Of a stretch of DNA of 57,609 bases, positions 1,509 through 13,024 are shown piece after piece. The stretch's first letter is position 1; every line of letters begins with the position of its first letter. The notes beneath the pieces were generated by a model. That model made no database searches and had not been told where the DNA came from. It saw nothing but the letters and a program-made list of their open reading frames with translations. A program made the translations under genes and the position numbers. This stretch comes from an uncultured Lachnoclostridium sp. (GTDB lineage Bacteria > Bacillota > Clostridia > Lachnospirales > Lachnospiraceae). Location: positions 1-57,609 of the forward strand of contig CAMKRZ010000020.1 of assembly GCA_946415315.1 (NCBI GenBank), given 5' to 3'.

Positions 1509-1718
1509 ATGACTGGTACAGTGAAGTGGTTCAATGCTCAGAAGGGTTATGGTTTCATCAGCAATGCTGAGGGCGGCGAGGATGTTTTCGTACATTTCTC
1601 CGCTATCCAGACCGAAGGCTACAAGACCCTTGAGGAAGGACAGCAGGTTTCGTTTGAGACGGAGCAGGATCCTAAGGATGCAAGAAAGCTTCGTGCAATC
1701 AACGTAAAGCCCCTGTAA
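1509..1718 (+). CDS. cspA: cold-shock protein (CspA family)
   Basis: 69 residues, the normal size of a bacterial CspA. It is a single OB-fold cold-shock domain beginning MTGTVKWFN. The two nucleic-acid-binding motifs are intact: RNP1-like KGYGFIS (residues 12-18) and RNP2-like VFVHFSAI (about 26-33). These proteins bind single-stranded RNA and DNA, melt mRNA structure and act as RNA chaperones in the cytoplasm. The gene has its own promoter, a long leader and a likely terminator. Read-through could reach the next gene, 114 bases downstream, which lacks an obvious promoter of its own. Confidence 0.96.
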
Positions 1719-1739
1719 TTGAACAACCGAAACGATGAT

Positions 1740-1831: not shown

Positions 1832-2791
1832 ATGAGTGAATCGGAACATAACGCTCTGCAAAACACCGAAGAGAGCAAGAGCGGAAAAACAAGGTCTGTC
1901 AGGGAAGAAGTACTGGCAGCTCGAAAATGCGAGAATATCAACGACCCTGTCGACACGTATTTTGTGGATTACGTTGCCATGGCATGGTCCAAACTGTTTA
2001 TTGCCCTGCACATCATTCCCAATGTGGTGACCATGCTGGCCATGATCTCCGGCATTGCAGGTGGTGTGTTGTTGATCCTCGACCGGTCGTTCTGGATGGA
2101 TCTCGCCGGCGCGGTGCTGGTGTTTCACTCGGCTGTCTTTGATGCGAGCGACGGCCAGGTGGCCCGCCTCACGAAGCATTACAGCCGCCTGGGACGAATG
2201 CTGGACGGCATGAGCGACGCCTCGGTCTATCTGACCCTCTACATCGCCTGCGTCGTGAGACTCTGGGATTGGAGTGACTCGGCGCTGTGGCACGTGTTTC
2301 TGATTGTCCTGGCAGCGGTGACTTACGTGCTTTACGTGGCTCAGTGCCAGCTTCCGGACTATTTCAAGAACCTGCACATGTTTATGATTGACAACTCCAA
2401 GGGAAACGAGCTGTCCCGCGGAAAGCATGTGAAGGCGGAGCTTGAGCAGGCAAAATTCGGTACTTTTGACCATTTTTCGAAGTTCTGTTATTATAACTAT
2501 ACGCACACACAGGAGCGCCGTGCACCGAAAACCCAGGCGTTGCTGGATGCCATCGAGGTTCGCGGGAAGAACGATGCTCTCCGCGATGCCTACTACGCGG
2601 AAGGCAGCAAGCTGGTGAAGCTGACCAATCTGCTCACCTTCAACCTGCGCACCGTGGTATTGCTCCTGTTCGTGTTCCTGCACCTGGAGATCGTGGGGCT
2701 TCTGTTTGTCGTGCTGGTGCTGGAGCCTGTTCGCCTGATCCTGCTCCGGAAGTACGAGAATCTGAGCGAACGTTTGCTGCCGATGGTTTGA
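1832..2791 (+). CDS. CDP-alcohol phosphotransferase family membrane enzyme
   Basis: 319 residues, integral membrane protein. It carries the full family signature DxxDGxxAR-x8-GxxxDxxxD: Asp104, Asp107, Gly108, Ala111, Arg112, Gly121, Asp125 and Asp129. These aspartates bind the two divalent metals and the CDP group. Family members move a substituted phosphate from a CDP-alcohol, or from CDP-diacylglycerol, onto an acceptor alcohol in the membrane. There is a soluble N-terminal stretch of about 45 residues, and a hydrophilic insertion (about residues 175-265) splits the membrane segments. A flippase-like gene follows 53 bases later, and then comes the aminoethylphosphonate/CMP-activation operon. 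By inference it may transfer AEP from CMP-AEP to a lipid acceptor; an ordinary phospholipid head-group enzyme is the alternative. Confidence 0.85.
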   Translation: MSESEHNALQNTEESKSGKTRSVREEVLAARKCENINDPVDTYFVDYVAMAWSKLFIALHIIPNVVTMLAMISGIAGGVLLILDRSFWMDLAGAVLVFHSAVFDASDGQVARLTKHYSRLGRMLDGMSDASVYLTLYIACVVRLWDWSDSALWHVFLIVLAAVTYVLYVAQCQLPDYFKNLHMFMIDNSKGNELSRGKHVKAELEQAKFGTFDHFSKFCYYNYTHTQERRAPKTQALLDAIEVRGKNDALRDAYYAEGSKLVKLTNLLTFNLRTVVLLLFVFLHLEIVGLLFVVLVLEPVRLILLRKYENLSERLLPMV

Positions 2792-2844
2792 TGAGCGTCT
2801 GCTTCTTAGGGCGCGTCTAATAACATCCTTCGAAGGAGTTTTTC

Positions 2845-3906
2845 ATGAAAGCAACTATCGACCAGCCCGAAGGTCGGAGCAAGCGCTTCCTCTGGAGCGT
2901 GGTGTTCCTGCTCCTCGCGGTCCTCTCCGTATGGGCCGTGACCAGCCAGTCCAAGGGCTTTTCGCCGAAACAGTTTGTGGAATATCTGAACAATAACAAT
3001 CCATGGTGGCTGATGGCAGCGTTTCTTGCCATGCTTGCCTATATCGCTTTTGACGCGATGCGCGTGCACTGCCTGCTGCGCGGCTTCGGCTACGCGAGAA
3101 ACGTCGGAAAATGTATTTCCTACGCGGCGGCGGATATCTACTTCTCCGCGATCACGCCCTCGGCAACCGGCGGACAGCCCATGGAAGCCTACTATATGGT
3201 CAAAGACGGCGTGCCGGTGATCATGTCCACCGTGATCATGCTGGCCTATCTGTTTTTCTATACGCTCTGTATCGTGATCATCGGTTTTCTGTGCCTGATC
3301 CTGAGTCCCGGTTCATTTATGTCGTTTGGCGTCGCAGGGCGGATCTTCATCATCGTGGGCGCGGTCATTCAGGTGGGGCTTGCCATATTTTACGGAATGC
3401 TTCTGTGGAGCAAAGGACTGATCCACAAAATTTTGCGGTGGGGTCTTCGGGTGCTTGCGAAACTTCATATTGTCCGACGGCTGGAGGAGCGAGAAGAGAA
3501 ACTCCGGGTCACCATGGAACAGTATGCGCAGGCCACGGAGATGCTCAAAGGACGCCGGGAGCTGATGGTGAAGACGCTGCTGCTGAACCTGGCGCACCGA
3601 GTCAGTCAGATCCTTGTGACGGTGTTCTGCTTTCTGGCGGGAGGCGGGTCCGTTCGCATGGCGCCCAGACTTTTCGCATTACAGTCTAACGTGGTGATCG
3701 GCTCCTGCTGTATTCCGATCCCGGGCTCCATGGGAGTTACGGATTACCTGATGATCGACGGCTTTTCCTCATTCATGACCGAGCAGGAATCGGCCAACCT
3801 GGAGCTGCTGGCCAGAGGAACGTCCTTCTACATCTGCATTTTGCTGTGCGGTCTCATCGTGCTGGTGAAAACCATCCGGCTTCGGATGCGGAAGGATCCG
3901 GAGTGA
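2845..3906 (+). CDS. flippase-like membrane protein (lysylphosphatidylglycerol synthase TM-domain / UPF0104 family)
   Basis: 353 residues with about eight hydrophobic segments and a basic cytoplasmic loop near residues 205-240. The overall pattern, including the segment ending SATGGQPMEAYYM and the later PIPGSMGVTD motif, is that of the MprF-type transmembrane domain family (AglD/UPF0104). In MprF this domain flips modified phosphatidylglycerol; stand-alone members are thought to move lipids or lipid-linked intermediates. The ATG at 2845 follows an AAGGAG box at 2833-2838. It forms a pair with the preceding CDP-alcohol phosphotransferase (make the lipid, then translocate it), which is inference. 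An intrinsic terminator follows directly. Confidence 0.82.
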   Translation: MKATIDQPEGRSKRFLWSVVFLLLAVLSVWAVTSQSKGFSPKQFVEYLNNNNPWWLMAAFLAMLAYIAFDAMRVHCLLRGFGYARNVGKCISYAAADIYFSAITPSATGGQPMEAYYMVKDGVPVIMSTVIMLAYLFFYTLCIVIIGFLCLILSPGSFMSFGVAGRIFIIVGAVIQVGLAIFYGMLLWSKGLIHKILRWGLRVLAKLHIVRRLEEREEKLRVTMEQYAQATEMLKGRRELMVKTLLLNLAHRVSQILVTVFCFLAGGGSVRMAPRLFALQSNVVIGSCCIPIPGSMGVTDYLMIDGFSSFMTEQESANLELLARGTSFYICILLCGLIVLVKTIRLRMRKDPE

Positions 3907-3942
3907 CCTGCTTTTTTCAACCGATATTGACAGTTGTTTCAG

Positions 3943-3975
3943 AACAGCCTGCGTTGCATTGCGCAGGCTGTTTTT
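3943..3975 (+). terminator. intrinsic terminator after the flippase-like gene
   Basis: A perfect 11-bp stem (AACAGCCTGCG with CGCAGGCTGTT), an 8-base loop and a T-run. It cleanly separates the transferase/flippase pair from the phosphonate operon. Confidence 0.9.
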
Positions 3976-3997
3976 GTTCATTTTGCGCGATATAGGG

Positions 3998-4025
3998 TTG
4001 CTGTTTTGAACAAAACTGATATAAT
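3998..4025 (+). promoter_or_regulatory. promoter of the phosphonate operon
   Basis: -35 TTGCTG (3998-4003), a 16-base spacer and a consensus -10 TATAAT (4020-4025), located between the terminator and the first gene of the operon. The untranslated leader would be about 28 bases. Confidence 0.8.
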
Positions 4026-4059
4026 AAAGGAGCGGCTTGGCCGCGGAAAGGAATCGTCT

Positions 4060-4956
4060 ATGGAACTCACAAGAAAGCAGTTTGACATATTGGTTGCGCT
4101 GGCGGAGTCCGACGCTCCGCTGAAGCAGCGGGAACTTATGAAAACTACGGGTCATTCCCTTGGAACCATCAACCGCATCGTCCGGGAGCTGACGGAGGAG
4201 GGGCTGATCGCGGACGGTACCATCACCGCCGCGGGCCTTGCGGCTTTGGAGCCGTATCGCGCCAAGAGGGCGGTGTTCATCGCGGCCGGGTTCGGGACAA
4301 GGCTTGTTCCGATCACGCTCAACACGCCCAAGCCGTTGGTGCGGGTGTTCGGGGTGCGCATCATCGACCGTCTGATCGACGCCTGCCTGGCAGCGGGGAT
4401 CAACGAGATCTACGTGGTGCGCGGATATCTGGCAGAGCTTTTTGACCAGCTTCTGTACAAGTATCCGATGATCAAGTTTCTGGAAAATCCCGTGTACAAT
4501 GAGGCGAACAACATCAGCTCGTCTCTGGTTGCGCGCTATCTGCTGTCCAACGCTTACGTCTTCGAGGCCGATCTGTTGATCAGCAATCCGAAGATCATCT
4601 GCAAATACCATTACTCGTCCGACTTTCTGGCGATCAGGAAGGACCGCACCGACGACTGGTGCTTCCTCGTCAGGGACGGTGTGATCACGGAGGAGAAAGT
4701 GGGCGGCGAAGGCGATAACGTCTGGCAGATGGTCGGCATCTCCTACTGGAACGAGGCGGATGGCCACAAGCTGAGCCAGGACATTCCCGACGTGTACGCA
4801 TCGCCCGGCGGCAAGGAGCGCTACTGGGAGCAGGTGCCTCTGGTCTACCGTAAGGACCGTTATGCGGTCGAGGTGCGCGAGTGCACGGAGGAGGACATCG
4901 TGGAAATCGACACGTTCAAGGAGCTGAAGGCGATCGACAAGACGTATGATGTCTGA
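4060..4956 (+). CDS. winged-helix/cytidylyltransferase fusion, LicC/PntC-like (probable CTP:aminoethylphosphonate cytidylyltransferase)
   Basis: 298 residues. Residues 1-66 form a MarR-like winged helix-turn-helix. From residue 70 a nucleotidyltransferase of the LicC type begins, with the signature AAGFGTR (75-81) and the conserved Lys91-Pro of the NTP-binding loop. Such enzymes join CTP to phosphocholine or, in the PntC group, to 2-aminoethylphosphonate, giving CMP-AEP for transfer to lipids or glycans. Genes for making AEP follow directly in the same operon, so AEP is the likely substrate; phosphocholine or phosphoethanolamine cannot be excluded. The ATG at 4060 has an AAAGGA box 7 bases upstream; a longer in-frame reading starts inside the terminator and is unlikely. 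The helix-turn-helix may be only structural or may sense product and regulate. Confidence 0.82.
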   Translation: MELTRKQFDILVALAESDAPLKQRELMKTTGHSLGTINRIVRELTEEGLIADGTITAAGLAALEPYRAKRAVFIAAGFGTRLVPITLNTPKPLVRVFGVRIIDRLIDACLAAGINEIYVVRGYLAELFDQLLYKYPMIKFLENPVYNEANNISSSLVARYLLSNAYVFEADLLISNPKIICKYHYSSDFLAIRKDRTDDWCFLVRDGVITEEKVGGEGDNVWQMVGISYWNEADGHKLSQDIPDVYASPGGKERYWEQVPLVYRKDRYAVEVRECTEEDIVEIDTFKELKAIDKTYDV

Positions 4957-4988
4957 GATGACGTAATATATACAAAGGAGTGTGCGCT

Positions 4989-6131
4989 ATGGAAGCGATC
5001 AAACGAAATATACTGCTGAATCCGGGGCCGTCCACGACGACGGACACCGTAAAATACGCCCAGGTAGTGCCGGACATCTGCCCGCGGGAAAAGGAATTTG
5101 CCGGCCTGATGAAGGGGCTTCGGGAGGACCTGGTGAAGATCGTTCACGGGGATCTCGAAAAATACACGAGCGTTCTGTTCTGCGGTTCCGGCACGATCAA
5201 TATTGACGTGGCGATCAACAGCCTTCTTCCGGAGGGAAAGAAGGTGCTTGTCGTGAACAACGGAGCATACAGCACCCGCGCCGTCGAGGTCTGTCAGTAC
5301 TACGGACTGCCGCATATCGATCTGCAGTTCCCGGTAGACCGGCAGCCTGACCTTGAGAAGGTCGAACAGGTGCTTAAGGAGAACCCGGATATCGCGCTTG
5401 TTCACACGACCCACAATGAGACCGGCACGGGAATCCTGAATCCGATCCGGGAAATCGGCGCGCTTGCGCATAAGTACGGTGCGGTGTTCACGGTGGACAC
5501 CACATCAACCTACGCGATGAGACCGATCGATCTCGACCGGGACAATATCGACTTCTGCATGGCTTCGGCGCAGAAGGGACTGATGGCGTTCACCGGGCTG
5601 TCGTTCATTGTAGGCAACCGGAAAATCCTCGAGGAGAGCAGGAACTTTCCGAAGCGCTCGTACTACTGCAACCTGTACCTTCAGTACGATTACTTCGAGC
5701 GCACCGGCGAGATGCATTTTACGCCCCCGGTGCAGACGATCTACGCGACGATTCAGGCGCTGAAAGAGTACTGGGCGGAAGGCGAGGAGGCAAAATGGGC
5801 GAGACACACGAGAGTGTTCAACGCGATCAACGAGGGGCTCGATGAACTGGGCTTCCGCCAGGTGATCCGGCCGGAGTGGAGATCGGGACTGGTGTCCTCG
5901 GCGATCTATCCGGACGATCCGAACTGGTCGTTTGAGGCAGTTCACGACTACTGCTATGAGAGGGGATTCACGATCTATCCCGGCAAGATCTCCACGACCA
6001 ACACGTTCCGGCTCTGCGCCCTCGGCGCGATTGACGAGGCGGACATCCGCGATTTCTTCGTCATTTTCCGCGAAGCATTACAGGCGACCGGCGTTCAGAT
6101 TCCGGTGCGCTATGAAGGAGATAACCGATGA
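4989..6131 (+). CDS. phnW: 2-aminoethylphosphonate:pyruvate-type aminotransferase
   Basis: 380 residues, PLP-dependent class V (fold type I) aminotransferase. The N-terminus LLNPGPSTTT and the lysine motif SAQKGLMAFTG (Lys196 as Schiff-base lysine) are typical of AEP transaminases. Enzymes of this group interconvert AEP and phosphonoacetaldehyde; next to PEP mutase and phosphonopyruvate decarboxylase the biosynthetic direction is expected. The ATG at 4989 is preferred over the GTG at 4980 because AAAGGAG (4974-4980) then sits 8 bases upstream. The stop overlaps the next start (ATGA), indicating translational coupling. Confidence 0.9.
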   Translation: MEAIKRNILLNPGPSTTTDTVKYAQVVPDICPREKEFAGLMKGLREDLVKIVHGDLEKYTSVLFCGSGTINIDVAINSLLPEGKKVLVVNNGAYSTRAVEVCQYYGLPHIDLQFPVDRQPDLEKVEQVLKENPDIALVHTTHNETGTGILNPIREIGALAHKYGAVFTVDTTSTYAMRPIDLDRDNIDFCMASAQKGLMAFTGLSFIVGNRKILEESRNFPKRSYYCNLYLQYDYFERTGEMHFTPPVQTIYATIQALKEYWAEGEEAKWARHTRVFNAINEGLDELGFRQVIRPEWRSGLVSSAIYPDDPNWSFEAVHDYCYERGFTIYPGKISTTNTFRLCALGAIDEADIRDFFVIFREALQATGVQIPVRYEGDNR

Positions 6132-7423
6132 AGACCGTATATACCTGTTTCTGCACCGATGTCATTCATGACGGACATCTGAATATTATCGCGGAGGCGC
6201 GCAAACGGGGGCGCGTTATCGTCGGATGCCTCTCGGACGAGACGCTGATCCGGTACAACAAATTCCCGACGGTTTCCCAGGAGGACAGGATCAAACTGTA
6301 CCGCAGCATCGAGGGCGTGGAGGAGGTTGTCATCCAGAACGACATGCGCTATGATGACGTGATCGCGCTCATCCAGCCGGACTACGTGCTCCACGGCGAC
6401 AACTGGAGAAAAGGTCCGGAGAAGGCCATCCGCGACCACGTGGAGGAACTGCTTGCGGCATACGGCGGCGAGCTTGTCGATATCCCTTACACGTACAACG
6501 AGACGGTTCGGAAAATCGACCTGCAGCTTCGGGAGAAGCTTGCGATGCCGGAGTACCGGAGAAAGAGACTGCGCCAGCTGATCTCCATGACGCCGATCGT
6601 CAAGGTGATGGAGGCGCACAGCGGCCTGACAGGGCTCATTGTCGAGAAGACCGTGGTGGAGCACGAGGGAAAACTGGACCAGTTCGATGCGATGTGGATC
6701 AGCTCTCTCTGCGATTCGACCGCCAAGGGTAAGCCTGATATCGAGCTTGTGGATATGACGTCCCGGTTCCGCACCATCGACGACATCATGGAAGTCACGA
6801 CGAAGCCCATCATTTTCGACGGCGACACGGGCGGACTGACCGAGCATTTTGTGTATACCGTGCGCAGTCTGGAACGCATGGGTGTGAGCGCCGTGATCAT
6901 CGAGGACAAGAAGGGACTCAAGAAGAACAGCCTGTTCGGCACGGAGGTTGAGCAGACGCAGGCGACCATCGGGGAGATGAGCGCCAAGATCGCAGCCGGC
7001 AAGACGGCACAGCTCACGGATGATTTCATGATCATCGCAAGGATCGAGAGCCTGATCCTCGAGAAGGGCATGGAGGATGCGCTGGCGAGGGCGAGGGCGT
7101 ATGTCGCCGCCGGAGCCGACGGGATCATGATCCACAGCCGGAGAAAAGACCCCGCGGAGATCGTGGAGTTCTGTGACCGGTTCCGCGAGGAGGATAAGAC
7201 GACGCCGATCGTTGTCGTGCCGAGCTCCTTCAACGTGATCACCGAGGAAGAACTGGCGCAGCACGGTGTGAACATCGTGATCTACGCGAATCAGTTGACG
7301 CGGAGCGCGTTTCCGGCGATGCAGAAGACCGCGGAGGACATTCTTAAGTATCACCGGGCCAAGGAAGTGGACGACCGGCTGATGCCGATCAAAGATATCA
7401 TTACGCTGATTGATGAACTGTAA
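6128..7423 (+). CDS. pepM: phosphoenolpyruvate mutase with N-terminal nucleotidyltransferase-like domain
   Basis: 431 residues. Residues 1-135 resemble a cytidylyltransferase-like domain with the HxGH nucleotide motif (His14-Asp-Gly-His17). Residues about 150-431 are the PEP mutase/isocitrate lyase barrel, with the diagnostic EDKKGLKKNS motif (259-268) and the DGDTGG loop (231-236). PEP mutase converts PEP to phosphonopyruvate, forming the C-P bond; equilibrium favours PEP, so the following decarboxylase must pull it. The second nucleotidyltransferase motif expected near residues 122-130 (GISST/GISTT type) reads YNETVRK, so the N-terminal domain may be inactive. The start overlaps the aminotransferase stop. 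Confidence 0.93.
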   Translation: MKTVYTCFCTDVIHDGHLNIIAEARKRGRVIVGCLSDETLIRYNKFPTVSQEDRIKLYRSIEGVEEVVIQNDMRYDDVIALIQPDYVLHGDNWRKGPEKAIRDHVEELLAAYGGELVDIPYTYNETVRKIDLQLREKLAMPEYRRKRLRQLISMTPIVKVMEAHSGLTGLIVEKTVVEHEGKLDQFDAMWISSLCDSTAKGKPDIELVDMTSRFRTIDDIMEVTTKPIIFDGDTGGLTEHFVYTVRSLERMGVSAVIIEDKKGLKKNSLFGTEVEQTQATIGEMSAKIAAGKTAQLTDDFMIIARIESLILEKGMEDALARARAYVAAGADGIMIHSRRKDPAEIVEFCDRFREEDKTTPIVVVPSSFNVITEEELAQHGVNIVIYANQLTRSAFPAMQKTAEDILKYHRAKEVDDRLMPIKDIITLIDEL

Positions 7424-7434
7424 GGAGACGTAAC

Positions 7435-8556
7435 ATGAAGGTTGAAAAGCTTGTTGAGATCATCGGCTCGGAGTTCTACACGGGCGTTCCGGACAGCCAG
7501 CTGAAGGCGCTGTGCAACTATCTGATGGACCGGTACGGGATCGATCCGCAGCACCATGTGATCGCGGCAAATGAGGGGAACTGCACGGCGCTTGCCGCCG
7601 GATATCATCTGGCGACCGGCAAGGTGCCGGTTGTATATATGCAGAACAGCGGCGAGGGCAACATCATCAATCCGGTGGCCTCTCTGCTGAACGATAAAGT
7701 CTACGCCATACCGGTCGTATTTATCGTCGGATGGCGCGGAGAGCCGGGGATCCACGACGAGCCGCAGCACATTTTCCAGGGCGAAGTCACCGTGAAATTG
7801 CTCGAGGATATGGATATCGCCACGTTCGTCATCGGCGCGGACACCGCTGACGAGGAGGTTGCCGCAGCCATGGCGGATTTTCGGAAAATTCTGGCCGCGG
7901 GCAAGGATGTCGCGTTCGTGATCCGCAAGGGAGCTCTCACGGACGCCCCAAAGGTGAAGTACGCGAACGACAATGTGATGCTGCGGGAGGAGATCATCCG
8001 CCACATCACGGCGGCGAGCGGCGAGGATCCGATTGTGAGCACCACCGGCAAGGCAAGCCGGGAGCTGTTTGAGATCCGCGAGGCGAACGGGCAGAGCCAC
8101 AAGTATGATTTTCTGACAGTCGGTTCCATGGGTCACAGTTCCTCCATCGCGCTCGGCGTGGCGATCAACAAGCCGGACACGAGGGTTTGGTGTATCGACG
8201 GAGACGGCGCCGTGCTCATGCATATGGGCTCGATGGCCGTGCTCGGGAGCAACAAGCCGAAGAACCTGATCCACGTGGTCATCAACAACGGTGCGCATGA
8301 GACGGTGGGCGGAATGCCGACCGTGGCAGGCAGCATCGACCTCGTGGGGATCGCGCTTGCATGCGGGTATCCTTACGCCGTGACCGTGGACAGTTTTGAG
8401 GCGCTTGACCGTGAGCTTCAGAATGCGAAAAACCGCGATTCGCTGAGCCTGATCGAAGTCAAATGCTCCATCGGCGCGCGCGAGGATCTCGGCAGACCGA
8501 CGACAACTGCGCTCGAGAACAAGCAGAATTTTACGGAGTATCTGAGAACCCTCTGA
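7435..8556 (+). CDS. ppd: phosphonopyruvate decarboxylase
   Basis: 373 residues, thiamine-diphosphate-dependent. The N-terminal half has the substrate loop GVPDS (18-21 region) and the catalytic glutamate in NEGN (Glu47). The C-terminal half has the ThDP/Mg motif GDG (256-258) ending in NN (284-285). The length and split-domain order match phosphonopyruvate decarboxylase rather than acetolactate synthase. It decarboxylates phosphonopyruvate to phosphonoacetaldehyde irreversibly, which drives the unfavourable PEP mutase step. AAGGAG (7422-7427) overlaps the upstream stop codon and gives 7-base spacing. It is the last gene of the four-gene operon. Confidence 0.93.
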   Translation: MKVEKLVEIIGSEFYTGVPDSQLKALCNYLMDRYGIDPQHHVIAANEGNCTALAAGYHLATGKVPVVYMQNSGEGNIINPVASLLNDKVYAIPVVFIVGWRGEPGIHDEPQHIFQGEVTVKLLEDMDIATFVIGADTADEEVAAAMADFRKILAAGKDVAFVIRKGALTDAPKVKYANDNVMLREEIIRHITAASGEDPIVSTTGKASRELFEIREANGQSHKYDFLTVGSMGHSSSIALGVAINKPDTRVWCIDGDGAVLMHMGSMAVLGSNKPKNLIHVVINNGAHETVGGMPTVAGSIDLVGIALACGYPYAVTVDSFEALDRELQNAKNRDSLSLIEVKCSIGAREDLGRPTTTALENKQNFTEYLRTL

Positions 8557-8581: not shown

Positions 8582-8617
8582 CGTCGGTTTTGCTGCGTTG
8601 CGCGGCAAGACGTTTTT
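8582..8617 (+). terminator. possible terminator of the phosphonate operon
   Basis: An imperfect hairpin (CGTC/GACG outer pairs, TTGCTGCG/CGCGGCAA inner pairs with a 4-base bulge) is followed by TTTTT, 26 bases after the last operon gene. The bulge makes it weaker than the other terminators here. Confidence 0.4.
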
Positions 8618-8656: not shown

Positions 8657-8739
8657 GACAGGGCACGGAAAATTGTGCGCGGCAGTGGGGAACTGTTTGC
8701 GGATGGGTGAAATGCCCGCAGTACGGAAGGATAATACCA

Positions 8740-12004: not shown

Positions 12005-12109
12005 GGAAGGTGGTACGGAATCCGCATAATCCGGGAGCAGGTGTGGGTAATGAAAAAGAATAAAACAGGATGCCGGAGCAGAACAGCGAGACGGCAGAGA
12101 AAGGACAAA

Positions 12110-13024
12110 ATGGAAACAGTATTGGTTATCATGGCAGCCGGCATGGGAAGCCGGTTCGGAGGCGGGATCAAGCAGCTCGCCGAGGTCGGCCCGAGTGGTG
12201 AGATCATCATGGACTACTCGATCTATGCGGCGAAGGAGGCCGGCTTTGACAAGGTCGTCTTCATCATCCGCCGTGACATTGAGGAGGCGTTCCGCAAGGC
12301 GATCGGCGATCGCATTGAGAAGTATATTCCCGTGACATATGTATACCAGGAGTTGGAAAATCTGCCGGAGGGCTATTCCGTTCCGGAAGGACGCGGCAAG
12401 CCGTGGGGCACGGGACACGCGATCCTGTCCTGCCTCGGGAAGATCAACGATCCGTTCCTTGTGATCAATGCCGATGACTACTACGGCAAGGAAGCATTTC
12501 GCGCGCTGCACGACTATCTTGTGGGACTTCCCGCGGACAGCAGAGGACAGTATTGCATGGCGGGCTTCGTTCTCGGCAACACCCTGAGCGACAACGGCAA
12601 AGTGACGCGCGGTGCCTGCATTGTCGAGGACGGTTATCTTACCGGTGTTGAGGAGAGATTTGACCTGCGCCGCGAGGGCGATGTCGTCGCGGGCCGCAAG
12701 GAGGACGGTACCCCGGTGGAGATTTCACCGGACTCGACGGTCTCCATGAATTTCTGGGGCTTTACGCCTGATTTCCTGCCGGAGCTCGAGGGATATTTCA
12801 AGGATTTCCTGGACAAGGAGGCATCCGTGAATCCGCTCAAGTCGGAATTCCTTCTGCCGAACATTGTCGGCTCGATGATCAGCGAGGGACGCGCGAAGGT
12901 GGCGGTACTGCCCACGGGCGACCGCTGGTTCGGCGTGACCTACGCCGAGGACAAGCCAGTTTTCATGAAATGTATCCGCGAGCTGATCGATGCGGGAGTG
13001 TATCCCGAGGCGACATTCCGCTGA
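12110..13024 (+). CDS. NDP-sugar-type nucleotidyltransferase
   Basis: 304 residues. The N-terminus has the nucleotidyltransferase signature MAAGMGSRFGG followed by a conserved lysine (IKQL), and VINADDYYG forms the metal-binding aspartate motif. These enzymes couple a sugar phosphate with an NTP to make a nucleotide sugar; the substrate cannot be told from sequence. The chosen ATG at 12110 has AAAGGA 4-9 bases upstream. It lies 105 bases after recD2 and separates it from the ComF-like gene, a pair often close together in related genomes. It is distinct from the LicC-like enzyme of the phosphonate operon, with no obvious link to it. Confidence 0.85.
   Translation: METVLVIMAAGMGSRFGGGIKQLAEVGPSGEIIMDYSIYAAKEAGFDKVVFIIRRDIEEAFRKAIGDRIEKYIPVTYVYQELENLPEGYSVPEGRGKPWGTGHAILSCLGKINDPFLVINADDYYGKEAFRALHDYLVGLPADSRGQYCMAGFVLGNTLSDNGKVTRGACIVEDGYLTGVEERFDLRREGDVVAGRKEDGTPVEISPDSTVSMNFWGFTPDFLPELEGYFKDFLDKEASVNPLKSEFLLPNIVGSMISEGRAKVAVLPTGDRWFGVTYAEDKPVFMKCIRELIDAGVYPEATFR

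Follow-up and report, generated by a model that had tools for sequence, protein, structure and literature searches.

Background

Two described systems come closest to the genes treated here, the Pnt pathway of Treponema denticola and Atopobium rimae (PMC6697681) and a phosphonolipid cluster predicted in a lichen Nostoc and in Burkholderia (PMC5987646, based on Yu et al. 2013). The present genes are located at positions 1832–8556 of a 57,609 nt stretch of DNA (contig CAMKRZ010000020.1, in the following called the window) from an uncultured Lachnoclostridium sp. of the Lachnospiraceae, the host. There are six of them, all on the plus strand, encoding a CDP-alcohol phosphotransferase (CDPAP), a flippase-like membrane protein (FLIP), a PntC/LicC-like cytidylyltransferase (PntC) and the three enzymes for the synthesis of 2-aminoethylphosphonate (AEP), namely 2-aminoethylphosphonate transaminase (AEPT), phosphoenolpyruvate (PEP) mutase (PEPM, gene pepM) and phosphonopyruvate decarboxylase (PPD, gene ppd). 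Based on gene content, gene order and phylogeny we lean, with some reservation, towards a module in two units that would produce a phosphonate analogue of phosphatidylethanolamine (PE). In a group of Oscillospiraceae a PntC/CDPAP route is found at the place where relatives have PssA-Psd, and from that side the host would have acquired both halves of the module.

Both systems resemble the window in several respects. With the Pnt pathway it shares PEP mutase, decarboxylase, transaminase and PntC, and Pnt clusters with a nucleotidyltransferase-PEP mutase fusion plus a separate nucleotidyltransferase have also been reported (PMC6697681). The main text of that paper is without the terms 'CDP-alcohol', 'flippase' and 'helix-turn-helix', and the Pnt acceptor is presumed there to be a carbohydrate or a lipid. 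The likeness to the Nostoc/Burkholderia cluster comprises a CDP-alcohol phosphatidyltransferase, an NTP transferase, pepM, ppd, AEPT and an HpnL membrane protein (PMC5987646), the last of these shared no further than PF03706, the flippase of the window being a TIGR00374 protein with no HpnL match. A 2-oxoglutarate Fe(II) oxidase belongs to that cluster but is not among the six genes at 1832–8556, the phyla are different and, unlike in Nostoc and Burkholderia, PntC is found in other genomes in the slot of PssA-Psd. The type of pathway is thus already known from the Nostoc/Burkholderia prediction and the PssA-Psd/PntC swap is the new element. When literature titles and abstract openings were searched, the matches listed held none on such a swap, on phosphonolipids of Oscillospiraceae, on a winged-helix PntC or on a gut Clostridia setting.

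AEP phosphonolipids are known from Trypanosoma cruzi (PMC2784872) and from ciliates (PMC4642753), and the making of bacterial phosphonate glycans and lipids has been described as almost wholly obscure (Rice et al. 2019, PMC6697681). The module gives a short list of proteins that can be assayed (PntC, CDPAP and one flippase) and, if the reading is true, the gene-for-gene exchange of PE for a phosphonate would be a natural experiment on the bacterial need for PE. The use of AEP as a marker of rumen protozoa has been questioned since feed and bacteria contain it too (PMC4659874, citing Ling and Buttery 1978), and the genomes described below name bacteria that could make AEP, which bears on this question.

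AEP synthesis in the window

Gene identities were assigned from Pfam/NCBIfam profile matches plus motif checks on the reading frames of the window, and all six genes named in the original prediction were recovered at the positions it had given (Table 1), with family matches and intact motifs. All three AEP enzymes score over curated NCBIfam cut-offs, the PEP mutase with 408.2 bits against a cut-off of 319.55 (TIGR02320), and the PEP mutase motif EDKx5NS is intact (EDKKGLKKNS at residue 259). The same protein carries an N-terminal cytidylyltransferase domain (PF01467) in which HxGH is intact as HDGH and whose best PDB match is the Fom1 domain 5x3d (E 9e-27), so that there are two cytidylyltransferases in the window, this Fom1-type domain and the separate PntC. 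The absence of phnX, noted earlier for the surroundings of these genes, extends to the whole genome of the host, where none scored over cut-off.

In the proposed pathway PEP mutase, decarboxylase and transaminase would form AEP, PntC would activate it to CMP-AEP, CDPAP would place AEP on a lipid alcohol, in the simplest case diacylglycerol, and the PF03706 protein would carry the resulting lipid across the membrane, every reaction after AEP being predicted from the genes and their context.

PntC in the PssA-Psd slot

Twenty CDPAP loci were retrieved from the species collection, of which 19 are labelled Oscillospiraceae, Ruminococcaceae, Ruminococcus, Clostridiales or Clostridia; a ruminant gut compartment is named for eight of the 20 and reindeer for one, and the RUG labels on other records are taken by us to mean rumen. 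A homologue of the window flippase is present in 15 of the loci and PntC in 12 (86–89% identity, with the exception of L057 at 68%), and in 11 loci CDPAP, flippase and PntC are found together. In L057 and L059 a different PF03706 protein follows, the one in L057 matching both PF03706 and HpnL, while the contig ends in L044 and L047 and no flippase was seen in L054.

Ten genomes share the order DUF6937/6938 - CDPAP - CYTH - PAP2 - FLIP - PntC - (permease) - SPOUT, here called locus 1, with the permease present in six, DUF6937 missing in L052 and SPOUT missing in L053, where the contig ends. Locus 2 consists of AEPT-PEPM-PPD; nine such loci were read, seven of them complete, one (L093) without AEPT and one (L094) cut, and none of the nine holds a homologue of the window PntC. 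Parts of locus 1 and locus 2 are joined in two genomes, the window and L041. The DUF6937/DUF6938 protein (L042:8334-9773), which by eye is possibly a glycosyltransferase, heads the lipid locus both with and without CDPAP, and the CYTH and PAP2-like proteins situated between CDPAP and flippase in Oscillospiraceae (L042:10920-12233) have no match in the window.

A search for Psd (PF02666) in 31 genomes gave 11 with the gene. None of the ten genomes with PntC in the locus 1 slot contains it, compared to 6 of 11 other members of the genus of G202 (p 0.012), a comparison from which G203 and G208, whose contigs end before the slot, were dropped. Across all 23 genomes of this genus Psd was found in 2 of 17 members with CDPAP versus 4 of 6 without (p 0.02); it was likewise undetected in G476 and G519, both of which lack CDPAP. 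In all four genus members that have Psd and no CDPAP, PssA-Psd share their neighbourhood with homologues of PAP2 and FLIP, exemplified by the orders DUF6937-CYTH-PAP2-FLIP-PssA-Psd-SPOUT in G520 and PssA-Psd-CYTH-PAP2-FLIP-SPOUT in G517. The identity of these FLIP homologues ranges from 38 to 70%, with 46% in G383 and with weak homologues in G315 (38–39%). G518 and G521 have CDPAP, yet there PssA-Psd occupies the slot after FLIP and no PntC is found in it; with 67.8 bits the PssA of G518 stays under the TIGR00473 cut-off (107), and the Psd of this genome passes the cut-off of Pfam but not those of NCBIfam.

The PE loci and the PntC loci thus have flippase, PAP2 and CYTH in common. This is most simply explained by PntC and CDPAP delivering a PE-like lipid, PssA-Psd presumably having preceded them in the slot. 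The host genome keeps a PssA-Psd pair elsewhere and may therefore make both lipids. A further-reaching scenario, according to which an AEP lipid fully replaced PE in a group of gut Oscillospiraceae, many of them from ruminants, with the slot of PssA-Psd taken over by PntC, Psd lost and flippase, PAP2 and CYTH re-used before the module moved to Lachnospiraceae, is conceivable but in our opinion doubtful.

Substrate of PntC

The PntC motif GxGTR..PK is intact, and the structural model (pLDDT 94.7) has its best folds in LicC (1jyk) and Tde-PntC (6pd2), LicC being the best match in sequence as well as in fold. N-terminally a winged helix is fused to the enzyme (window 4060-4210), which would make this PntC a fusion of regulator and enzyme. 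The winged-helix stretch is also present in the aligned PntC proteins of Oscillospiraceae, L057 and G189.

The positions that have been compared with regard to AEP versus phosphocholine are Glu104/Glu196 in Tde-PntC and Asp105/Asp192 in LicC (PMC6697681). PntC of the window has Glu169 and Glu257 where LicC of Streptococcus pneumoniae has Asp, although the alignment with Tde-PntC stops short of the second position, and unlike in the LicC setting no choline kinase is found among the six genes. Glu at both positions is also seen in 11 other PntC of CDPAP loci (at least 86% identity), in L057, in one of the two from G189 and in L063. Two other features appear to favour AEP as the substrate: in the window pntC heads the AEP operon, and pepM is enriched in genomes with CDPAP. 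In the genus of G202, where CDPAP was found in 17 and PEPM in 9 of the 23 genomes, PEPM is present in 9 of 17 genomes with CDPAP versus 0 of 6 without (one-sided p 0.03, ignoring relatedness). The family sample of 300 genomes contains four with CDPAP, 12 with PEPM and two with both, that is PEPM in 2 of 4 versus 10 of 296 (one-sided p 0.008, assuming the same 300 genomes and ignoring relatedness). Among the 20 CDPAP-locus genomes PEPM is full or nearly full in ten, and an eleventh match covers the cytidylyltransferase domain only.

Several observations weigh against AEP as the head group. The first Glu is present in all 19 aligned proteins and is thus not diagnostic, the second pocket position is Asp in four PntC-like proteins encoded near pepM, and Ari-PntC, a proven AEP enzyme, is nearer to LicC than Tde-PntC is (PMC6697681); for these reasons the Glu/Glu pocket is weak evidence. 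In G214, G215 and G217 it is CDPAP itself that occupies the slot, with no PntC nearby. The folds and profiles of CDPAP mix CDP-diacylglycerol (CDP-DAG) enzymes, such as phosphatidylinositol (PI) phosphate and phosphatidylserine (PS) synthases, with CDP-head-group enzymes, and in the window CDPAP-flippase is probably transcribed separately from the AEP operon (both discussed below). Furthermore, pepM was undetected in 8 of the 17 genus members with CDPAP and in five of the ten genomes whose slot holds PntC, all metagenome-assembled genomes with completeness not established. The original prediction had named conservation of the CDPAP-flippase pair in relatives lacking pepM as evidence against an AEP lipid, and these eight of 17 genomes go part of the way in that direction, as do the flippase homologues beside PssA-Psd in genus members devoid of CDPAP and pepM.

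Since pepM was not detected in these eight, phosphoethanolamine stays a rival substrate, from which PntC would make CDP-ethanolamine and CDPAP ordinary PE by a Kennedy-type route, the AEP of the operon being used elsewhere. The failure to detect Psd where PntC holds the slot is explained equally well in this manner, and the five slot genomes without detected pepM as well as the Asp in the four PntC-like proteins would fit it; an amino acid permease follows pntC in six of the ten slot genomes, scoring far under the cut-off of the ethanolamine permease family TIGR00908. Inspection of four loci by eye (without a family search) turned up no reading frame for a kinase, though, and the position of pntC at the head of the AEP operon and the pepM enrichment speak for AEP, so that we regard a Kennedy-type synthesis of PE as unlikely. 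If an AEP lipid is made, those members in which pepM is missing might draw on AEP from rumen ciliates, such uptake being speculative. An APC permease as the AEP-uptake stand-in for pepM is unsupported as a rule and stays a speculation: counting presence anywhere in 23 CDPAP-containing genomes, it was found in 6 of 12 with and 7 of 11 without pepM (p 0.68). G499 was left out of the count, as it is absent from the 12 PEPM matches of the family sample, assuming the same 300 genomes. A search of the locus 2 flank with a phosphatase gene matched 10 of 23 genomes, 4 of them at the true flank, and was uninformative on an empty site.

CDPAP and the flippase

In the Kennedy pathway of eukaryotes (CEPT1/CHPT1), a CDP-alcohol phosphotransferase hands the activated head group to a lipid alcohol. 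The motif of CDPAP, claimed earlier to be intact, is present in its full form D-x2-DG-x2-AR-x8-G-x3-D-x3-D as DASDGQVARLTKHYSRLGRMLDGMSD, and its defining residues are invariant in 24 aligned sequences. Similarity to the eukaryotic Kennedy-type enzymes is nevertheless weak (8ero, E 0.0014). When the AF2 model of CDPAP (pLDDT 85) was run through Foldseek, AF2299, the nearest solved fold, and mycobacterial PgsA1 came out on top, AF2299 with a weak E of 6e-3 and nothing at E <= 0.001, and among NCBIfam families CDPAP comes closest to archaetidylinositol phosphate and PI-phosphate synthases, in every case far under cut-off. Such matches, distant as they are, would suit a CDP-DAG-dependent synthase of PS-, PI-phosphate- or archaetidylinositol-phosphate-like type, unrelated to AEP and with pntC adjacent by coincidence. 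This seems quite unlikely in view of the 11 of 20 loci in which CDPAP, flippase and PntC stay together and of the distribution of Psd between genus members with and without CDPAP, and in G518 and G521, which hold a PssA besides, CDPAP can hardly be the PS synthase.

The membrane protein had been called MprF-type, which is appropriate for its transmembrane, flippase-like part. MprF is, however, a flippase fused to an aminoacyl-lipid synthetase, and the window protein, with its 353 aa, has no synthetase domain and reaches 24.6 bits for NF033480, where 600 are required. In other genomes its homologues adjoin CDPAP or PssA-Psd, and as a homologue is found beside PssA-Psd in all four Psd loci from genus members that lack CDPAP and pepM, the flippase is not specific to phosphonates, a point against the earlier reasoning, but is tied to aminoethyl lipids.

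Phylogeny and probable transfer

In the midpoint-rooted tree of PEPM the window and L041 nest among Oscillospiraceae (98/93) and G189, from the same genus as the host, falls outside. For CDPAP and FLIP, the sequences of the window and L041 fall inside an unresolved radiation of Oscillospiraceae, and for PntC just outside ten close Oscillospiraceae sequences. The direction of transfer consequently rests on the pepM tree and on gene order. The gene set of the host was probably acquired, and for the genes other than pepM a transfer from the Oscillospiraceae side to the host is likewise suggested. L041, a Lachnospiraceae genome from buffalo rumen, repeats all six genes with 82–92% identity, its mreB being 97% identical.

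Survey of the host family

To cover the Lachnospiraceae, 200 genomes were searched with the PEP mutase and CDPAP queries, the flippase query not being included. The former matched 68 genomes at E <= 0.001; the cytidylyltransferase-PEP mutase fusion was found over its whole length in 20, including the host, and a clear PEP mutase domain alone in two more (G123 and G129). CDPAP scored high in the host only, seven other matches being at or below 26.3 bits. Apart from the host, 21 genomes have a clear PEP mutase domain; the pepM neighbourhoods of 20 of these were fetched (G089 was left out), and neither CDPAP nor flippase was found in any of them. Because of this, adjacency to pepM alone is weak support, and although synthesis and flipping of an AEP lipid is upheld as the best reading, the adjacency from which it was originally argued is a poor reason for it. 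Joint occurrence of pepM and the pair within the host family was therefore dropped as support, CDPAP being present in only 1 of the 200 genomes.

The same-genus genome G189 contains pepM (79%), two PntC-like proteins, a LicD protein and a 2-AEP-type ABC transporter. This cluster would be in line with decoration of a glycan or glycolipid by AEP, the flippase moving a lipid-linked glycan, as would the DUF6937/6938 protein heading the Oscillospiraceae locus and the prediction that most Pnt clusters serve glycans or lipids (PMC6697681). As the six genes of the window include neither LicD nor a glycosyltransferase, and as PssA-Psd in the same slot in its kin points to a phospholipid, we judge such a decoration very unlikely for the window. 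The ABC transporter (L061:5467-8958) lies inside the pepM cluster of G189 with PhnS2 and PhnT2 as best matches, both under cut-off, and suggests AEP uptake and synthesis in one cluster. Independently, pepM and ppd of G123 are accompanied by a 228-aa CDP-alcohol phosphotransferase and a nucleotidyltransferase-iron alcohol dehydrogenase fusion (L079:8580-13690), perhaps for a hydroxyethylphosphonate lipid.

Transcription units and neighbouring genes

Table 1. Genes and putative signals of the locus, in window coordinates
Feature	Position	Strand	Evidence and remarks
CDPAP (CDP-alcohol phosphotransferase), 319 aa	1832..2791	+	PF01066 (CDP-OH_P_transf) 52.6 bits
Flippase-like membrane protein, 353 aa	2845..3906	+	PF03706/TIGR00374
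Terminator-like stem between the CDPAP-flippase pair and the AEP operon	3941..3974	+	14 pairs, 7 GC, T tail
Promoter-like site TTGCTG-16-TATAAT upstream of pntC	3998..4025	+	By eye; missing from scan list, weak
PntC/LicC-like cytidylyltransferase	4060..4956	+	NTP_transferase; catalytic part ~68-298, winged helix ~4-50
2-Aminoethylphosphonate transaminase (AEPT)	4989..6131	+	PhnW-AepZ TIGR03301 457.7 bits, cut-off 360.8; start taken as ATG 4989 (open reading frame program: GTG 4980)
Fom1-type cytidylyltransferase (~6128-6556) fused to PEP mutase (~6569-7420)	6128..7423	+	PF01467, PF13714, TIGR02320
Phosphonopyruvate decarboxylase (ppd)	7435..8556	+	TIGR03297 464.2 bits, cut-off 312.5
Terminator-like stem closing the AEP operon	8587..8611	+	11 pairs, 6 GC, T tail

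The four AEP genes stand together as an operon, as had been claimed, with pntC first and with gaps of -4 bases between AEPT and PEP mutase and 11 bases between PEP mutase and ppd. The CDPAP-flippase pair is probably a separate unit, a terminator-like stem being located in between. As a scan of the window gave 10 terminator-like sites where shuffles had 7.2, only the length of this stem carries weight. Together with the host-family pepM neighbourhoods devoid of the pair, the stem would agree with two units that are neighbours by chance and act independently, which is hardly credible when Oscillospiraceae keep pntC together with the pair and when L041 as well as the window combine both units.

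Downstream of the AEP operon mreB follows at 8707, and immediately 5' of CDPAP a small cold-shock-type reading frame was recognised by eye (window 1509-1719). A second NTP-transferase-like protein is found 3.5 kb downstream (window 12104-13024, PF12804 31.2 bits), preceded by mreB and by a gene that looks helicase-like by eye.

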